Assembly (NCBI GenBank): GCA_021463145.1
Contig: JAJTWZ010000035.1
Span: 1 to 44,977, forward strand
From: Blastocatellia bacterium
Lineage (GTDB): Bacteria > Acidobacteriota > Blastocatellia > UBA7656 > JADIYM01
DNA length: 44,977 bases
Direction: 5' to 3'
Shown: piece after piece, positions 32,433 through 44,777 of the stretch
How positions within the stretch are numbered: the stretch's first letter is position 1
Layout: every line of letters starts with the position of its first letter
Program-made: the position numbers and the translations under genes
Notes under the pieces: model-generated
Told to the model about the DNA's origin: nothing
Databases searched by the model: none
The model's input: only the letters and a program-made list of their open reading frames with translations

Positions 32433-34190
32433 TCACGCATAACGCGTCACGGCGAAGAGGCGAACCTCACCCATTCCCTCGAAGTCCGCCGTGCCTCGGT
32501 CTTCGAACTCGATTCCCGATCCGGCCACGATGTCTTTCACGGTGCCCGTGACAAGCACCTCTCCGGAAGAGGCAAGCCTCGCCACATGCGCGCCAATCTC
32601 GACTGCAAGGCCGCCGGTGCCCGACGGCCGGACTTCGCACTCACCGGTGTGCAACCCGGCGCGGACTTCCACGCCGAGCCGGCGAGCCACGTCGCGAATC
32701 GCACAAGCGCATCGAATCGCCCGAGCCGGACCGTCGAAGGTGGCAGTGACACGGGAGTCAAGCACCTCCGCCGCGCTCCCTCTGAACAACTGGATCTCCC
32801 GGCCCACATGCGACACGAACCGGTACAACAGGCCACGACCTCCCGATGCCGCGCTCTCCGGTGAAGGCGTCGGAACGCTGTCTATGAAGGCAACCAGAAC
32901 CGTTGCAAGCACGCGATCTAGATCCGGGGCGTGACGGGCGCCGGTCAGGAACTCTTCGATCTCGTCCAGGATCGCGTCCTGATCGCCAACGAACGGTAAA
33001 TGGTCGGCACCGGGCAATTCGACGAACTTGGCGCCAGGGATGCGTTCGGCGACGAATCGGCCTTCTTCCACGCGCAAGCACGTGTCGCCGGTCCTGTGAA
33101 GGACAAGCGTCGGGACGCGGACGGACCGCAGAATACTCCTGACGTCAATCTCGGCATTCATTCGCGTCAGCGCAACGGCAGCCGCCGGACTTGCGCCCAT
33201 TCGAAGATACGCCGCCCACCACTGCCGGAATTCCGGGTCCTCGGCTCGGCTGGGCGCGCGCTCGTCGATTCCGACCGGGCCTCCCCAGTCTCTCTGCAGC
33301 ATTTGGAGAAACGCCTCGCGCTGCTCGACGGTCGGTCCCCAGGGATAATCTGCTTCACGAAGCCGCTTCGCATACGTCCCAATCATGACGAGCGCAACCG
33401 TCTTCTCCGGGTAGGTCGCGGCGAACAATGCGCTCATCGGGCCGCCCTCCGATACCCCGATCAACGCCGCCTGCGTCGACCCGACGGCGTCCATCACCGC
33501 GCGCACGTCGTCCATTCGCTGCTCGAGTGTGGGCAACTCCTTGAGCGACACGCGGTCGGAAAGACCGGTGCCGCGCTTGTCGAACAGGATCAAGCGCGAA
33601 AAAGCAGCCAGACGGGACAGGAAGCGCGCAAAGTCCAGGTTCTTCCAGTAATACTCGAGATGCGAGACCCAGCCCATCACGAACACGACGTCGATCGGCC
33701 CATCTCCGACGACCTGATAGGCAATGTTGACGTCGGCGCTCTGCGCATAGTGGATTTCGGGCGGCCGGCGGATGATCTTAACCTTCGACCCGTCATCGGT
33801 GCGAGGGGAGCCGACGGCCACGGGAGCGGCCGCCTCGGCTGCCGCGACGGGCAACCCACCCGAGTCGAACTGGCGGACCTTGTCGGCAAACCTGTAACCG
33901 CGACGCGGAACGGTCTCTATGTACTGTCCCCCATCCGCACGCTCGCCAAGCGCCTTGCGCACCAGCGACACATTCACCGCCAGGTTCGCTTCCTCCACGA
34001 ACGCGTCGGGCCAGATCGCCTCGAGAAGCACCTCCTTCTCGAGTACCCGGCCCGCATTACGGACGAAAAACGCGAGCGTGTCGAACGCCTTGGGCGTGAG
34101 CGCGACGTTCTCTCCATCCCGCAACAGGACCCGTTCGGTGAAGTCCAGGCGAAAGGGACCGAAATCGTAGTAGCGCGTTCGAGATTCCAT
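32433..34190 (-). CDS. winged-helix / alpha-beta hydrolase / cyclase-like three-domain regulator
   Basis: This 585-residue protein begins with an OmpR/CadC-type winged helix (residues 6-102; PKAFDTLAFFVRNAGRVL, YIETVPRRGYRF). An alpha/beta-hydrolase follows (about 145-415) with LFDKRGTGLSDR, nucleophile Ser247 in GVSEGG, Asp369 and His397. The C-terminus (about 425-585) is a class III nucleotide cyclase-like domain (GPARAIRCACAIRD, VEVRAGLHTGECE). The cyclase part is damaged: the first metal site is FIDS with one aspartate left, the GDG loop is altered to LDSRV, and the transition-state Arg is His535. It may sense a ligand by the hydrolase fold. ATG at 34190 excludes a basic non-homologous extension. 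It diverges from the ECF sigma operon. Confidence 0.85.
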   Translation of the reverse strand: MESRTRYYDFGPFRLDFTERVLLRDGENVALTPKAFDTLAFFVRNAGRVLEKEVLLEAIWPDAFVEEANLAVNVSLVRKALGERADGGQYIETVPRRGYRFADKVRQFDSGGLPVAAAEAAAPVAVGSPRTDDGSKVKIIRRPPEIHYAQSADVNIAYQVVGDGPIDVVFVMGWVSHLEYYWKNLDFARFLSRLAAFSRLILFDKRGTGLSDRVSLKELPTLEQRMDDVRAVMDAVGSTQAALIGVSEGGPMSALFAATYPEKTVALVMIGTYAKRLREADYPWGPTVEQREAFLQMLQRDWGGPVGIDERAPSRAEDPEFRQWWAAYLRMGASPAAAVALTRMNAEIDVRSILRSVRVPTLVLHRTGDTCLRVEEGRFVAERIPGAKFVELPGADHLPFVGDQDAILDEIEEFLTGARHAPDLDRVLATVLVAFIDSVPTPSPESAASGGRGLLYRFVSHVGREIQLFRGSAAEVLDSRVTATFDGPARAIRCACAIRDVARRLGVEVRAGLHTGECEVRPSGTGGLAVEIGAHVARLASSGEVLVTGTVKDIVAGSGIEFEDRGTADFEGMGEVRLFAVTRYA

Positions 34191-34303
34191 GATTCGGGCA
34201 GTTCCGCGGTGGCGAGTATACGCAGCACCGGGCACCCTGGCTCCATTTTTTGCATTCGAAACCTTGTTGGACCGCGTATAGGGGTTCGAACGCGATTTGA
34301 TAC

Positions 34304-34849
34304 GTGGCCATTCAGAATCCAAACGAGACGTTCGATGCCGCGCGGCTAGGCGACCACGCCGCGTTCGCCTCGCTCGTTCGAGAGCATCAGGCGATGGTCT
34401 TCAGCATCGGGCTCAATTCGACTCGCGACCGCGCACTTGCCGAGGAACTGGCTCAGGAAGTGTTTATGGAGCTCTACAAGTCGCTGCAGTCGCTCCAGAG
34501 CGCCGCACACGTGCGATTCTGGTTACGGCGCGTTACGAGCCATCGCTGCATCGACGCGATGAAGCAGCGCCGGGTTCGAAATTTCGTGGGCCTCGACGAA
34601 GTGCCGGAGCCGGCGGCGCCGGCCAGTCCCACCGACCCTTTGCTGAGCAGGCGCCTGCAGCGGATCGTTGCGGCGCTGCCGGAACCAGCGCGAATGATCG
34701 TGATCCTCAGATTTCAGGAAGACCTCCGACCCGCCGACATCGCCGAGATTCTCGAACTTCCTGTAAACACCGTAAAAAGCCACCTCCACCGTTCGCTTGC
34801 CATACTCCGCGGCAAGCTCGAGCCGACGATCCACGAGGTTCCCGCATGA
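34304..34849 (+). CDS. ECF-family RNA polymerase sigma factor
   Basis: This 181-residue sigma-70 factor has region 2 (FASLVREHQAMVFSIGLNST, AEELAQEVFMELYKSLQSL) and region 4 (LQRIVAALPEPARMIVILRF, LRPADIAEILELPVNTVKSHLHRSLAIL), without regions 1 and 3, as in ECF factors. The start is GTG at 34304; no better in-frame start precedes region 2. The stop overlaps the next gene by four bases. The operon runs sigma, membrane protein, DUF4252, hypothetical, so the sigma factor probably controls an envelope response and likely its own operon. Target genes are not known. Confidence 0.94.
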   Translation: MAIQNPNETFDAARLGDHAAFASLVREHQAMVFSIGLNSTRDRALAEELAQEVFMELYKSLQSLQSAAHVRFWLRRVTSHRCIDAMKQRRVRNFVGLDEVPEPAAPASPTDPLLSRRLQRIVAALPEPARMIVILRFQEDLRPADIAEILELPVNTVKSHLHRSLAILRGKLEPTIHEVPA

Positions 34850-37913: not shown

Positions 37914-39287
37914 CTACGCGAGCGCGCGCTCCAGTTCTTCGCGAATCTCGTCGAGCGTTAGATTTGCGAGCCTGCCGTCGACGACGAGCGGCCGGCCGGC
38001 GACCCAGGAATGGCGCACGGCGGTCTGCGCCACCATCGAGTAGACGACAGCGTTGAGCAGGTCGTCGCCGCCCGTGAAGGCGCCGGGCCAGAGCGATGGA
38101 TCGTCGAGCGAGATCGCAATCACGTCGCCCCACAGCCCCGGTTCGAGACGGCCGGATTCGATGCCGAGGGCGCGCGCTCCGCACTGCGACCCGAGCTCGA
38201 AGAGCGGGAGTGCCGATCCGCGCGACGCCGGCGCAGCGCCCGGAACGATTCCCATCTCGAGCGCCGTAACGCGTTGCAGGTATTCGACCGCGCGCATCTC
38301 GTCGAACAGGTTGAGGCGATTGTTTGCGTCAGTTCCCAACGCGACGGACACTCCACGCTTCAGCAGGTCAGGAATTCTCGCGACTCCATCGCCGAGAGCC
38401 ATGTTCGTCAGGGGGTTGTAGACCAGGGCGCCGCCGCGATCGGCGAGCAGTTGCCGCTCGCCCTCGTCCAGCCAGATGCCGTGCACGATCGCAGTCAGTT
38501 CCGAGAGCGCTCCCATTCGATCGAGCGCCCGGAGCGGCGAAACGCCATACTTCTCGAGCGCAAACGGCAGGTCGCCTTCCTGTTCAGCCAGATGGATGTG
38601 AAACGGCGCGCCGATCTCGCCGGCAATCTCGGCCGCGGCACGGATCATCGGCTCCGACGCTCCGTGCAACGAATGCGGCGCTGGCCGGACCGCGACCAGA
38701 TCGTCGCCGGCGCAGGCCTCGTGCAGGGCGCGCGTGTTCGCCGCTGCGTCGTCGACCGACTCCCGGAAACTCGCCTGTCCCGGCTTCGAACCGAGGTCGT
38801 ACATCGTGCGCAGCAGCGCGATCCGGATCCCGAGCCGGCGCGCGGAGTCGATCACGGCTTCGGCGTGCCGATTGCCGCCACCCGACCCGTTGCGCCCGTG
38901 ATGAACGTAGAAAAACTCCCCGACGGTCGTCGTTCCGGAGAGCGCCATCTCGGCGTAGGCGAGCAAGGCGGCGGCTGCGATCGCTCGCTCGTCGAGGCGC
39001 TCGACCAGCGGATAAAGGTGACCGTCCACCCAGTCGCGGAAGTTGCGGGCGTTGTCTCCGTTTCCCCTCAGCAAGACCTGGAACGAGTGCGTGTGACTGT
39101 TGATACAGCCTGGAAGCAGCGCGTGCCCCGGAAAATCGCGACGGGTCGCTCCAGCAGCCTCCGGAAGCATTTCCAGCTCTGCCACCGGTCCGACCCCGGC
39201 AATGCGGCCGTCGTCTCCGATGAGCACCGCGCAGCCCGGCGCGAATCGCCGGTCCAGGAAGACGTGGTCCGCCGTCAGCAGTTGCAC
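37914..39287 (-). CDS. amidohydrolase-family deaminase, HutF/TRZ-ATZ-like
   Basis: This 457-residue metal-dependent hydrolase has H65-T-H67 in CINSHTHSFQ, HIHLAEQEGD, HGIWLDEGE and the metal aspartate in LGTDANNRLN. GEFFYVHHGRNG resembles the EFHYLHH signature of formimidoylglutamate deiminase, and the C-terminal beta domain of the ATZ/TRZ group is present. Likely reaction: deamination of an amidine or ring C=N bond of a small molecule. GTG at 39287, four bases after the M20 peptidase stop, is the start; the longer frame lies in another gene's sequence. The tight coupling with an M20 hydrolase suggests consecutive steps of one pathway. Substrate unassigned. Confidence 0.85.
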   Translation of the reverse strand: MQLLTADHVFLDRRFAPGCAVLIGDDGRIAGVGPVAELEMLPEAAGATRRDFPGHALLPGCINSHTHSFQVLLRGNGDNARNFRDWVDGHLYPLVERLDERAIAAAALLAYAEMALSGTTTVGEFFYVHHGRNGSGGGNRHAEAVIDSARRLGIRIALLRTMYDLGSKPGQASFRESVDDAAANTRALHEACAGDDLVAVRPAPHSLHGASEPMIRAAAEIAGEIGAPFHIHLAEQEGDLPFALEKYGVSPLRALDRMGALSELTAIVHGIWLDEGERQLLADRGGALVYNPLTNMALGDGVARIPDLLKRGVSVALGTDANNRLNLFDEMRAVEYLQRVTALEMGIVPGAAPASRGSALPLFELGSQCGARALGIESGRLEPGLWGDVIAISLDDPSLWPGAFTGGDDLLNAVVYSMVAQTAVRHSWVAGRPLVVDGRLANLTLDEIREELERALA

Positions 39288-39291
39288 GCGA

Positions 39292-40317
39292 TCACCCGGC
39301 TGCGAGTGACGACTCGAGCAATTCGGCACCGAGACGTTCGTAGAGCTGGATGCCGAGCGCGATCTGCTCCATCGTGATGTGCTCGTTCGACGAGTGAGCG
39401 ACCTCGATGTCGCCCGGCCCCACCAGAAGGATTCTGCCCAGCGCCTTGAGGAAGCTCGCGTCAGTGTTGAAGTTCGCGACGCCGGTTTCGTAACCGTAAG
39501 GAACGTCGAACAGCTCCGGGCCGTTCTCGGTAAGCACCGTACGCTGCACGCCTTCCACAAGTGCAGCATCGATCGCCGCTAGGACATCCGCCGAAGGTCC
39601 GACCGTTCGGAACATGAGCTCGGCGGACGCAGCCGGAGCGAGAACGTTCGCGGCGACGCCACCGCCAATCAGTCCAACATTGAAGAACGTCTCTCCGAGA
39701 ACGTCGTGCCTTGGCCAGTCGCGACACCTGAGCGCCTCGAGCGTTGTCAGCAACCTATCCACCGCCGAGACTCCCCGATGCGGAAAGCCGGAATGGGCCG
39801 CGCGCCCTTCGGCATCGAGGCGCACTTTCACGACTCCTTTCTGAGCGGCGATGACGCTGCAGACCGTGGGTTCGCAAAGCAGGATGTCGGATGTTGCAAT
39901 CGGAAGCCTGGCCGCCGCCTTCGCGCCGGAATGATCGACTTCCTCGCCGACGACGAACAGGAACCCGAAATCGCCGATTCCCCGCTCGCGGAGCCGGCGT
40001 CCTGCTTCGAGCATCGCGACGATCCCGCCTTTCGTGTCGCACGCGCCGCGGCCGAAAATAGTGTCGCCTTCCCGGCGATACGGAATGAAAGGCGGCACGG
40101 TATCGATGTGAGTCGAGAAGTAGAGTCGCGGCCGTTCTCCCTCGCTGATGGCGAGGATGTTGTCACGGCAGGGCGCAACCTCGTGGGAAGTGACGCGGTA
40201 TCCGTCGGCCTCCAGGACGCGCGACAGAATCGCGGCGATTCCGGCTTCGTCGCCAGTCGTGGATGGCGTGTCGATCAACTCTCTCAGCAGGTCGAGGCAG
40301 TGTTCAGGGACGTTCAT
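39292..40317 (-). CDS. M20 family metallo-hydrolase (ArgE/DapE/CPG2 type)
   Basis: This 341-residue dizinc enzyme shows STHIDTVPPF with His70, FGRGACDTKGG with Asp94, VVGEEVDHSG with the Glu pair near 125, and C-terminal AHSSNEHI. The lid domain at about 160-270 is normal. M20 members remove acyl groups from amino acids or peptides; nothing distinguishes ArgE, DapE, or a carboxypeptidase here. ATG at 40317 overlaps the stop of the preceding fusion gene by four bases, and the deaminase follows after four bases, so the three are one operon. Cytoplasmic. Confidence 0.9.
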   Translation of the reverse strand: MNVPEHCLDLLRELIDTPSTTGDEAGIAAILSRVLEADGYRVTSHEVAPCRDNILAISEGERPRLYFSTHIDTVPPFIPYRREGDTIFGRGACDTKGGIVAMLEAGRRLRERGIGDFGFLFVVGEEVDHSGAKAAARLPIATSDILLCEPTVCSVIAAQKGVVKVRLDAEGRAAHSGFPHRGVSAVDRLLTTLEALRCRDWPRHDVLGETFFNVGLIGGGVAANVLAPAASAELMFRTVGPSADVLAAIDAALVEGVQRTVLTENGPELFDVPYGYETGVANFNTDASFLKALGRILLVGPGDIEVAHSSNEHITMEQIALGIQLYERLGAELLESSLAAG

Positions 40318-40868
40318 TCCTCTCCACTCCCGGTCTGCAAAGGGACGAGCACGGCCACCGGTCCGTACACTTCGGACTGACAGGAAAGGCGCCAGCCCTC
40401 CGGCAGCAGGTTGTCGAGATGCCTGCTTTCGGGATCCGTGGATTCCGACAACGACGACGCACCCTCCAGAACCTGCACGCGGCACGTGCCGCAGATCCCC
40501 TGGCCGCCGCAGTCGTGTCGAATCTCGACACCCGCCGCCTCGGCGATATCCAGCAGCCTGTCGCCAGCGGTGCACGTAGTCGACACTCCCACCGGTTCGA
40601 ATATGACCGGGATCGATCCCGCCGGCCGCGCAGTTCTCCGTCCGAGGCCGGCACGTTCGAGAGCTTCGGCCTGCCCGGCGTCGTATCGCGACAGCATGTC
40701 CACGGCCTCGCCAATGTGGTGCTTCTCCTGCCTCGTGATCTCGACCAGAAGCTCGCGAACAGCGGCAGTGCGCGCACGATCGACCATCTCCGTATAGACG
40801 TTCACCGTATCGAGCTCACGAACGAGGAGTTCGCGGATCAGATCTTCCGGGTCGCGGGCTTTCGGCAT
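40314..40868 (-). CDS. EncFtn-like two-helix ferritin domain fused to a plant-type [2Fe-2S] ferredoxin
   Basis: Residues 6-65 form a ferritin-like two-helix unit with Glu18, Tyr25, Glu48 and His51 (QEKHH). The spacings Glu-7-Tyr, Glu-30-Glu, Glu-3-His equal those I recall for the encapsulated ferritin EncFtn (E32, Y39, E62, H65). Residues 87-175 are a [2Fe-2S] ferredoxin with Cys120, Cys126, Cys129 and Cys163. A short basic linker joins them. No encapsulin gene or EncFtn-type targeting tail is seen in the window. Possible role: iron oxidation or reduction coupled to electron transfer. A rubrerythrin-like half-domain is the alternative. It overlaps the M20 gene by four bases. Promoter and start are discussed at 40878. 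Confidence 0.75.
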   Translation of the reverse strand: MPKARDPEDLIRELLVRELDTVNVYTEMVDRARTAAVRELLVEITRQEKHHIGEAVDMLSRYDAGQAEALERAGLGRRTARPAGSIPVIFEPVGVSTTCTAGDRLLDIAEAAGVEIRHDCGGQGICGTCRVQVLEGASSLSESTDPESRHLDNLLPEGWRLSCQSEVYGPVAVLVPLQTGSGEE

Positions 40869-40877
40869 GGCGTGTGG

Positions 40878-40906
40878 ATTCTGGGTGCGGCTGGGTGACG
40901 TGTCAA
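40878..40906 (-). promoter_or_regulatory. promoter of the ferredoxin fusion/M20/deaminase operon
   Basis: On the minus strand a perfect TTGACA (40901-40906) and CAGAAT (40878-40883) are 17 bases apart. The -10 ends nine bases before the ATG at 40868, so the message would begin within about two bases of the start codon and be leaderless or nearly so. Confidence 0.65.
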
Positions 40907-43313: not shown

Positions 43314-44696
43314 TCAACCGTCACGTTTTGCCAACATTCGGGCCAGCAGTTCAATCTGCCCGCGCAACGCTGCCGATTCCTCGATCAGGTCGGAGAGGAT
43401 TCGACGCAAGGTCGCCGCCTCGGTCGAATCCGGCCTGGCGAATCCGCGGTTCAGGTCGGCGTCGGTGCATTGCCGCAACCACGCTTCAAGTTGGCCGTGT
43501 GCCCACGCGACTTCGGCGATGAGCCGGCTCGGGCTCTTCCGGGGCGCAAGCTCGGGAGTGCCGAATCCGAATCTTGCCTGCACGTCGTCTGGCACGATCT
43601 CGCCGGCGAGCACCTCGTGGTGAACGCGCACGACCTCGGCGCCGGCCTGCAGGAGCAGGCTCGCGATCGCCGGTGCTTCGTTCGATGGACGCCACACGAC
43701 CTCGTCGAGCGTCAATCCTTCGGTGATGGATTCCAGTGTGTCACGTTGCTCGAAGAGACGGCGGGCAAGCCTTCCCACTCCGGGTGAAAGTCCCGGCCAC
43801 GGCTCGACATCCGTGGCGACACGAAGGGCGACGTCGCCCTCGAGGGCGCCGCTTGCCGAGTGCGAGAGGAAGCCGTCGATTGCATCGACGAAGGCGTCGG
43901 GCTGTTCGAACGTCACTAGATGGCCGCAAGGCTCGAGTGGCTCGACACGAGCGCGCGCAATTTCCTCCCTCGCTCGTGTGGCAGAAAGAGGCGACGCGAC
44001 CGGATCGTCGGCGCCCCAGATGATAAGGGTCGGCGCCGTAACCTTCGAGAGCCGGTGACCGACGGGATGGTGCAGCACGGACGACATCGCTTCTTCGACG
44101 GTTCGAGTCCAGGCTCGAAACGCCACGCACTGGGCAAGCTCGTCGCGTAGTTGAAGCTCGTCCTCGAGTTGTTCGTTCCATCCGGCGGCGAGCGACTGGT
44201 ACCAGGCCCGCCGGCCAGTCCTGTCGTGCGCGAGCAGTTCGTCGCCGCGCCAGCGCTCCATTGCGGCGTCAAGCTCGGTATCGGACAGCCTGTCGACGGC
44301 AGGAATCGCGGAGAGGACGAGCCGGTCGACGCGCTCCGGGTACTCCGACGCGAATCGCACGGCGATCGCGGCCCCAAGGCCGTGACCGACCAGCGATGCT
44401 CTGTCGATGTCCAATGTCGTCAAGAGCCCGCCAAGCAGATTCGTGTGCAGGACGACAGCGTCATCCATTGGCGGCCGGTCCGATTTGCCGAAGCCGAGCA
44501 GGTCGAAGCCGACCGCGCGGCGTGTTGCGCCGATGCGCTCGTACGCGGCCGCGAAGGCGTCGAGATCCGAAGCAACGTCGTGGAGAAACACGACTGGCTC
44601 GCCGGCAAATTCGTTGACGTCGACGTACGCGTGGCGAAAGCCATCCACGACGGCGAAACGAGTCGGGTATCGGTATGGAACATCGAGAAAATTCAC
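43314..44696 (-). CDS. alpha/beta-hydrolase fused to a DinB-like domain, both active sites incomplete
   Basis: This 460-residue protein has an alpha/beta-hydrolase domain (about 10-290) and a C-terminal DinB-like helical bundle (about 320-460). In the hydrolase the nucleophile elbow reads G104-H-G-L-G108 where GHSxG is expected, so the catalytic serine is glycine; Asp in WGADDPVAS and His in CGHLVTF remain. In the DinB part expected metal histidines are lost (SLLLQAGAEV, DLIEESAALRGQI). Start chosen at GTG 44696 because GGAG lies nine bases upstream; ATG at 44777 would add 27 proline-rich residues. It may be a binding protein rather than an enzyme. It is the first gene of the minus-strand cluster. 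Confidence 0.8.
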   Translation of the reverse strand: MNFLDVPYRYPTRFAVVDGFRHAYVDVNEFAGEPVVFLHDVASDLDAFAAAYERIGATRRAVGFDLLGFGKSDRPPMDDAVVLHTNLLGGLLTTLDIDRASLVGHGLGAAIAVRFASEYPERVDRLVLSAIPAVDRLSDTELDAAMERWRGDELLAHDRTGRRAWYQSLAAGWNEQLEDELQLRDELAQCVAFRAWTRTVEEAMSSVLHHPVGHRLSKVTAPTLIIWGADDPVASPLSATRAREEIARARVEPLEPCGHLVTFEQPDAFVDAIDGFLSHSASGALEGDVALRVATDVEPWPGLSPGVGRLARRLFEQRDTLESITEGLTLDEVVWRPSNEAPAIASLLLQAGAEVVRVHHEVLAGEIVPDDVQARFGFGTPELAPRKSPSRLIAEVAWAHGQLEAWLRQCTDADLNRGFARPDSTEAATLRRILSDLIEESAALRGQIELLARMLAKRDG

Positions 44697-44777
44697 GGAA
44701 GGCGTCTCCGCTGCGGGCGGCCCGGGGGAAAACCGCTTTCTGGAATCGGGGCCTGGCAACTGGCCGGTCGGGATCAT

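Follow-up and report, generated by a model that had tools for sequence, protein, structure and literature searches.

A gene joining an EncFtn-like domain to a ferredoxin

The DNA analyzed here, referred to as the window, is a stretch of 44,977 nucleotides from a Blastocatellia bacterium, and on its minus strand a single gene encodes an EncFtn-like helical domain followed by a [2Fe-2S] ferredoxin. The features of this gene and of the two genes downstream are as follows.

40314..40868, minus strand: fusion gene, 184 aa, EncFtn-like domain plus [2Fe-2S] ferredoxin (open reading frame, family matches, and AlphaFold2 model)
40644..40868, minus strand: EncFtn-like helical domain, residues 1-75, with helices 7-31, 35-62, and 64-72 (EncB_fam, PDB entries for EncB and PFC_05175, and model)
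40815..40817, minus strand: E18, equivalent to the diiron ligand Glu32 of EncFtn
40794..40796, minus strand: Y25, equivalent to EncFtn Tyr39
40725..40730, minus strand: Q47-E48, E48 being the bridging Glu62 and Q47 the outer-site Glu61
40716..40718, minus strand: H51, equivalent to the diiron ligand His65 of EncFtn
40617..40643, minus strand: linker, residues 76-84, at the place of the disordered tail of other EncFtns
40329..40616, minus strand: [2Fe-2S] ferredoxin domain, residues 85-180
40482..40511, minus strand: cluster cysteines C120, C126, and C129 (CX5CX2C)
40380..40382, minus strand: fourth cluster cysteine, C163 (RLSCQ)
39292..40317, minus strand: M20 deacylase, DapE-like
37914..39287, minus strand: HutF-like amidohydrolase

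The reading frame proposed by an earlier, sequence-only reading of this DNA proved exact, running from an ATG at 40868 to 40314 as an uninterrupted 184 aa with no internal stops. An overlapping plus-strand frame, 40263-40898, was discounted, since it is antisense to a family-supported gene. The core of that proposal, a four-cysteine [2Fe-2S] ferredoxin joined to an EncFtn-like domain whose diiron half-site is intact, is upheld by family models, matches to solved structures, conservation in homologues, and a confident structural model. Both domains are well supported, and the EncFtn, Fer2, and PDB matches are far beyond chance.

The presence of the fusion in one genome only might point to a sequence accident, either an error of assembly or base calling or a gene fusion that is recent and nonfunctional, but we consider this very improbable. 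The two domains share a single unbroken frame with a short linker, and the ferredoxin has no plausible start of its own, the nearest in-frame candidates being GTG at codons 93 and 95, both inside the ferredoxin. GC3 is even across the halves (0.73 and 0.75), coding-type and similar to that of the neighbor genes, and the stop of the fusion is coupled to the next gene.

This coupling extends to both hydrolases, as had been claimed, with an ATGA overlap between the fusion stop and the M20 start and only 4 nt between the M20 stop and the GTG start of the amidohydrolase; the three genes are probably cotranslated. In several relatives, the M20 homologues (35-44% identity) adjoin genes resembling lysC, asd, or dapB, as judged by eye, which suggests a DapE-type deacylase. 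The match of the amidohydrolase to HutF is below the curated cut-off. No ferredoxin or EncFtn was found beside the M20 homologues, and the pairing of the fusion with the two hydrolases was not seen in other genomes. The DapE-like and HutF-like hydrolases, which have no evident iron role, are probably functionally unrelated to the fusion.

Two other multidomain genes were observed on the minus strand of the window. The gene at 43314-44777 encodes an alpha/beta hydrolase with a C-terminal DinB/mycothiol-S-transferase-like domain (MST at 26.5 bits, just under the cut-off of 27; DinB_2 at 2.2e-4), and the gene at 32433-34322, assigned by eye, combines a winged-helix DNA-binding domain with an alpha/beta hydrolase and ends in a cyclase-like domain.

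The helical domain is EncFtn-like and divergent

Residues 10-72 of the fusion match the NCBIfam EncB family (encapsulin ferritin-like cargo) with an E value of 3.6e-13 and 49.6 bits, below the curated cut-off of 90, and the PF22277 match reaches 16.2 bits against a cut-off of 27 (E = 0.0088). The domain is EncFtn-like but divergent, since it falls under both curated cut-offs. A single-sequence query with the N-terminal half found Pyrococcus furiosus PFC_05175 (2e-7) and Myxococcus xanthus EncB (1e-6) in the PDB, while an EncFtn profile of four sequences, the query domain among them, matched EncC, PFC_05175, and EncB at 1e-17 to 4e-20. The identity of the helical domain to the EncFtn paralogues of the same genome is 29-33%.

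AlphaFold2 with a 32-row alignment returned a model with a mean pLDDT of 90.8, in which the three helices, mostly at pLDDT 87-97, are followed by a beta-grasp fold from residue 86. The pLDDT is lower at about residues 70-80, and with a pTM of 0.61, how the two domains sit relative to each other is uncertain. The model has the EncFtn layout of two long helices and then a short one (PMC11202242). A single-sequence model (pLDDT 51.7) was rejected.

The Pfam Rubrerythrin model scored 16 of 22.8 bits, below its cut-off, and no rubredoxin is present. Whereas a rubrerythrin has a single-chain four-helix domain with two ligand sets plus a rubredoxin, the fusion has two long helices with one half-site.

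The diiron residues are retained and the outer iron site is altered

The spacing of E18, Y25, E48, and H51 (7-23-3) is that of Glu32, Tyr39, Glu62, and His65 of Rru-EncFtn (numbering of PMC11202242), as the sequence-only reading had asserted. All four residues are kept in 15 of 15 EncFtn homologues, drawn from this genome and from others of its class and phylum, with alignment rows picked by the register of the expected residues; the mixed alignments A2 and A3 misplaced the EncFtn homologues. The same four residues show no variation in the plain alignment A1, and the PDB profile matches align them as well. The worry that the ExxH residues might prove unconserved is thereby answered, and so is the worry that the two helices might form a rubrerythrin half with no subunit-shared site: the helical domain holds a single E...ExxH half-site, and with one half-site per chain, a complete diiron site would have to be shared by two subunits, consistent with the D5 decamer of EncFtns.

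Bacterial EncFtns also carry the pattern His57-xxx-Glu61-Glu62-x-Glu64-His65, in which His57, Glu61, and Glu64 form an outer electronegative site through which iron has been proposed to enter (PMC11202242). The fusion departs from it. Position 57 is E43 here and H or D in 15/15 homologues, position 60 is R46 here and mostly acidic in homologues, and position 64 is H50 here and often E in homologues. Glu61, an E in all 15 homologues, is replaced by Q47, a loss seen in one fusion sequence and one that conservation among fusions cannot weigh. As read from this one sequence, the putative redox site is retained while the presumed iron-attracting surface is changed. The suggestion that one chain would combine iron storage with its electron partner therefore stands in part: the diiron residues are there, but storage is not supported, the chain lacking a targeting peptide and having altered outer iron-site residues.

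These residues bear on a reading of the fusion as a ferroxidase with an electron sink, in which Fe(II) would be oxidized at the diiron site and electrons would exit via the ferredoxin rather than pass to O2, as might serve anaerobic or low-O2 iron oxidation or the handing on of iron. The EncFtn diiron residues, Y25 included, are all intact, and known EncFtns are ferroxidases (PMC11202242). The alteration of the proposed iron-entry site (Q47, R46, and H50) argues against a high iron flux, and even though iron entry from the central channel side is possible, with D20 kept, we regard this reading as rather improbable.

The ferredoxin domain

All four cluster cysteines had been claimed for the C-terminal half, and C120, C126, C129, and C163 (CX5CX2C...C) are indeed present and kept in 16/16 homologues; a fifth, C99, is not conserved. 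Pfam Fer2 (PF00111) covers residues 91-167 with an E value of 4.1e-15 and 55.9 bits against a cut-off of 21, so that score, the four cysteines, and beta-grasp fold all place the domain in the Fer2 family. Fold comparison of the model returned ferredoxins only, so these matches concern the ferredoxin half alone. The best was Rhodobacter capsulatus FdC (9i2a; VIA Z 15.3, rmsd 1.5 over 92 residues), with further matches to Fdx and to RACo (3zyy; VIA Z 12.9).

The closest relatives of the ferredoxin, at 40-49% identity, lie within frames of ∼650 aa, and its nearest kin are the N-terminal ferredoxins of RACo/AcsV-type corrinoid-protein activators (DUF4445/ASKHA). The AcsV model matches the fusion at 1.2e-14 with 53.7 of 800 bits. 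In contrast to these activators, the fusion has its ferredoxin C-terminal to the EncFtn domain and ends 4 residues past it, with no ASKHA ATPase domain.

That these relatives serve as electron donors in other systems, as in the RACo-type activators, lends something to the view that the EncFtn part is a mere oligomerization scaffold, with the diiron site unused and the ferredoxin serving an unrelated reductase. We judge this quite improbable, given that the four diiron residues are kept while neighboring surface positions have drifted, which suggests selection on the site.

An encapsulin system elsewhere in the same genome

The sequence-only reading took the fusion to be coupled to hydrolases instead of an encapsulin, and a search of the genome corrected this: a shell gene is present, though not adjacent to the fusion, together with two EncFtn genes, also located elsewhere.

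G000:C108:54350-55141: EncA-like shell gene (PF04454, E = 1.5e-64; best PDB match M. xanthus EncA, 1.5e-101)
C172:5311-5541 (L027): EncC orthologue (E = 8.7e-34 across nearly the full length), ending in SPTVGSLRKQ
C24:49835-50068 (L026): another EncFtn, ending in AWTVGSLRGLPYPE, with a TVGSLR targeting peptide

A search of the genome with a TVGSLR-type codon pattern found C-terminal targeting peptides only on the C24 and C172 EncFtns. The fusion, the third EncFtn paralogue of the genome, ends in VAVLVPLQTGSGEE and has no TVGSLR-like targeting peptide; its ferredoxin occupies the position of the tail and targeting peptide. Of the two marks of a family 1 encapsulin cargo, an encapsulin in the genome and a targeting peptide on the protein, the fusion has the former and lacks the latter.

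This EncA/EncC/EncFtn set resembles the Myxococcus one. Each of its three genes is on a different contig, and neither cargo gene adjoins that of the shell. In a genome of the same order (G005:C106), a 106-aa EncFtn ending in FTVGSLREK (L048) lies directly downstream of an encapsulin gene. Three EncFtn domains in phylum relatives (L110, L113, and L115) are preceded by a hydrophobic N-terminal segment and a short spacer, for example, NRLVPLFIGLFIIGGGMLLVGFLLGSPAPADNP..., and read as if they were membrane anchored or exported.

The fusion shares its helix layout, diiron residues, and one half-site per chain with the targeting-peptide-bearing EncFtn/FLP-TP proteins (M. xanthus EncB and EncC, P. 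furiosus PFC_05175, and Rhodospirillum rubrum Rru_A0973), but a ferredoxin replaces the disordered tail, the targeting peptide is missing, Glu61 is Gln, and the family scores fall below the cut-offs. The s-FLPs, such as Nitrosomonas europaea NE0167 (PDB 3k6c), also combine the EncFtn fold with no recognizable targeting peptide (PMC11202242); unlike the fusion, these have no ferredoxin, and those of the relatives have a WYxQR-type helix whereas the fusion is nearer EncB.

With an EncA-like shell and two EncFtns bearing TVGSLR tails, one of them the EncC orthologue, the genome raises the possibility of an iron-release subunit, which would enter the encapsulin in mixed rings with the targeting-peptide-bearing paralogues and whose ferredoxin would reduce stored Fe(III), in the manner of bacterioferritin-associated ferredoxin or EncD. 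Ferredoxins do occur with IMEF encapsulins and have been proposed to aid iron release (PMC8346489, PMC11202242). Like the fusion, the IMEF-operon ferredoxins and Bfd link a [2Fe-2S] protein with a ferritin-like protein, but they come from a separate gene, belong to the Bfd family, and have an N-terminal TVGSL motif, whereas the ferredoxin here is Fer2-type and covalently joined. The fusion carries no targeting peptide of its own, its gene is not near the shell gene, and the 29-33% helical-domain identity to the paralogues makes mixed rings uncertain. We therefore find this role unlikely.

Distribution

The same fusion was sought elsewhere, and no second copy appeared in 162 class genomes (E ≤ 1e-15), 396 of the phylum, and 395 of another phylum, nor in plasmids and viral contigs; the class and phylum samples overlap and include no genome of the same genus or family. 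A scan of genome contigs gave ferredoxin matches only, and no fusion was found around ferredoxin matches in same-order genomes, where the motif filter recognized 1/7 ferredoxins. The stronger grounds for its absence elsewhere are the lack of long-coverage matches and the EncFtn profile search, which found EncFtns in 16 of the 396 phylum genomes, with a ferredoxin attached in the fusion genome only.

Published precedents include Flp domains joined to the shell protein, IMEF encapsulin operons that carry a separate ferredoxin gene, and s-FLPs lacking a targeting peptide (PMC8346489, PMC11202242). No report of an EncFtn-ferredoxin fusion was found in the open-licence literature, a scope outside which most subscription journals lie. 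The fusion is a domain combination not known before and, so far, comes from a single genome.

A possible redox function outside the encapsulin

A rubrerythrin chain contains a complete diiron site and ties its diiron domain to a redox partner. The hydrogenase-rubrerythrin chimera couples H2 oxidation to H2O2 reduction (PMC11926857). Both resemble the fusion in having a diiron ferritin-like site and an electron-carrier domain in one chain; they differ from it in their partner, a rubredoxin or a hydrogenase, where the fusion has a [2Fe-2S] ferredoxin, and the complete site of a rubrerythrin chain compares with a half-site in the fusion.

With these precedents in mind, our preferred, if tentative, reading is that the fusion may be a soluble, unencapsulated, oligomeric EncFtn-type diiron redox protein with a built-in ferredoxin as its electron partner, following a rubrerythrin-like logic. 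Two chains would pair via their EncFtn helices, probably in an EncFtn-like ring, such that E18, E48, and H51, with Y25 nearby, complete the diiron site. The tethered ferredoxin would accept electrons from a cellular reductase and pass them to this site, which would reduce O2 or H2O2 outside the encapsulin instead of mineralizing iron inside it. We infer the oligomer, the direction of electron flow, the substrate, and the location from the EncFtn and Fer2 matches, the conservation of the diiron residues and cluster cysteines, the confident model, the missing targeting peptide, the changed outer site, and the precedents above. Counting against this reading, EncFtn rings without a targeting peptide, as in s-FLPs, may still be loaded (PMC11202242), known EncFtns act as ferroxidases, and the operon has no redox or stress partner.

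A further-reaching form of this diiron redox reading, which we hold to be possible but somewhat doubtful, is that of a self-contained EncFtn-ring redox enzyme with intersubunit diiron sites wired to tethered clusters. The ferredoxin would have replaced the targeting tail, and a former cargo would have become an O2/H2O2 or iron-mobilizing reductase beside an intact EncA/EncC system.

For electron transfer into and out of EncFtn ferroxidases and the iron cores of encapsulins, separate ferredoxins, flavins, and EncD have been proposed (PMC11202242). A natural chain that joins a ferredoxin to an EncFtn diiron site would allow the passage of electrons to that site to be tested directly, and it would be an example of an EncFtn that departed from the encapsulin with its paralogues remaining cargo.
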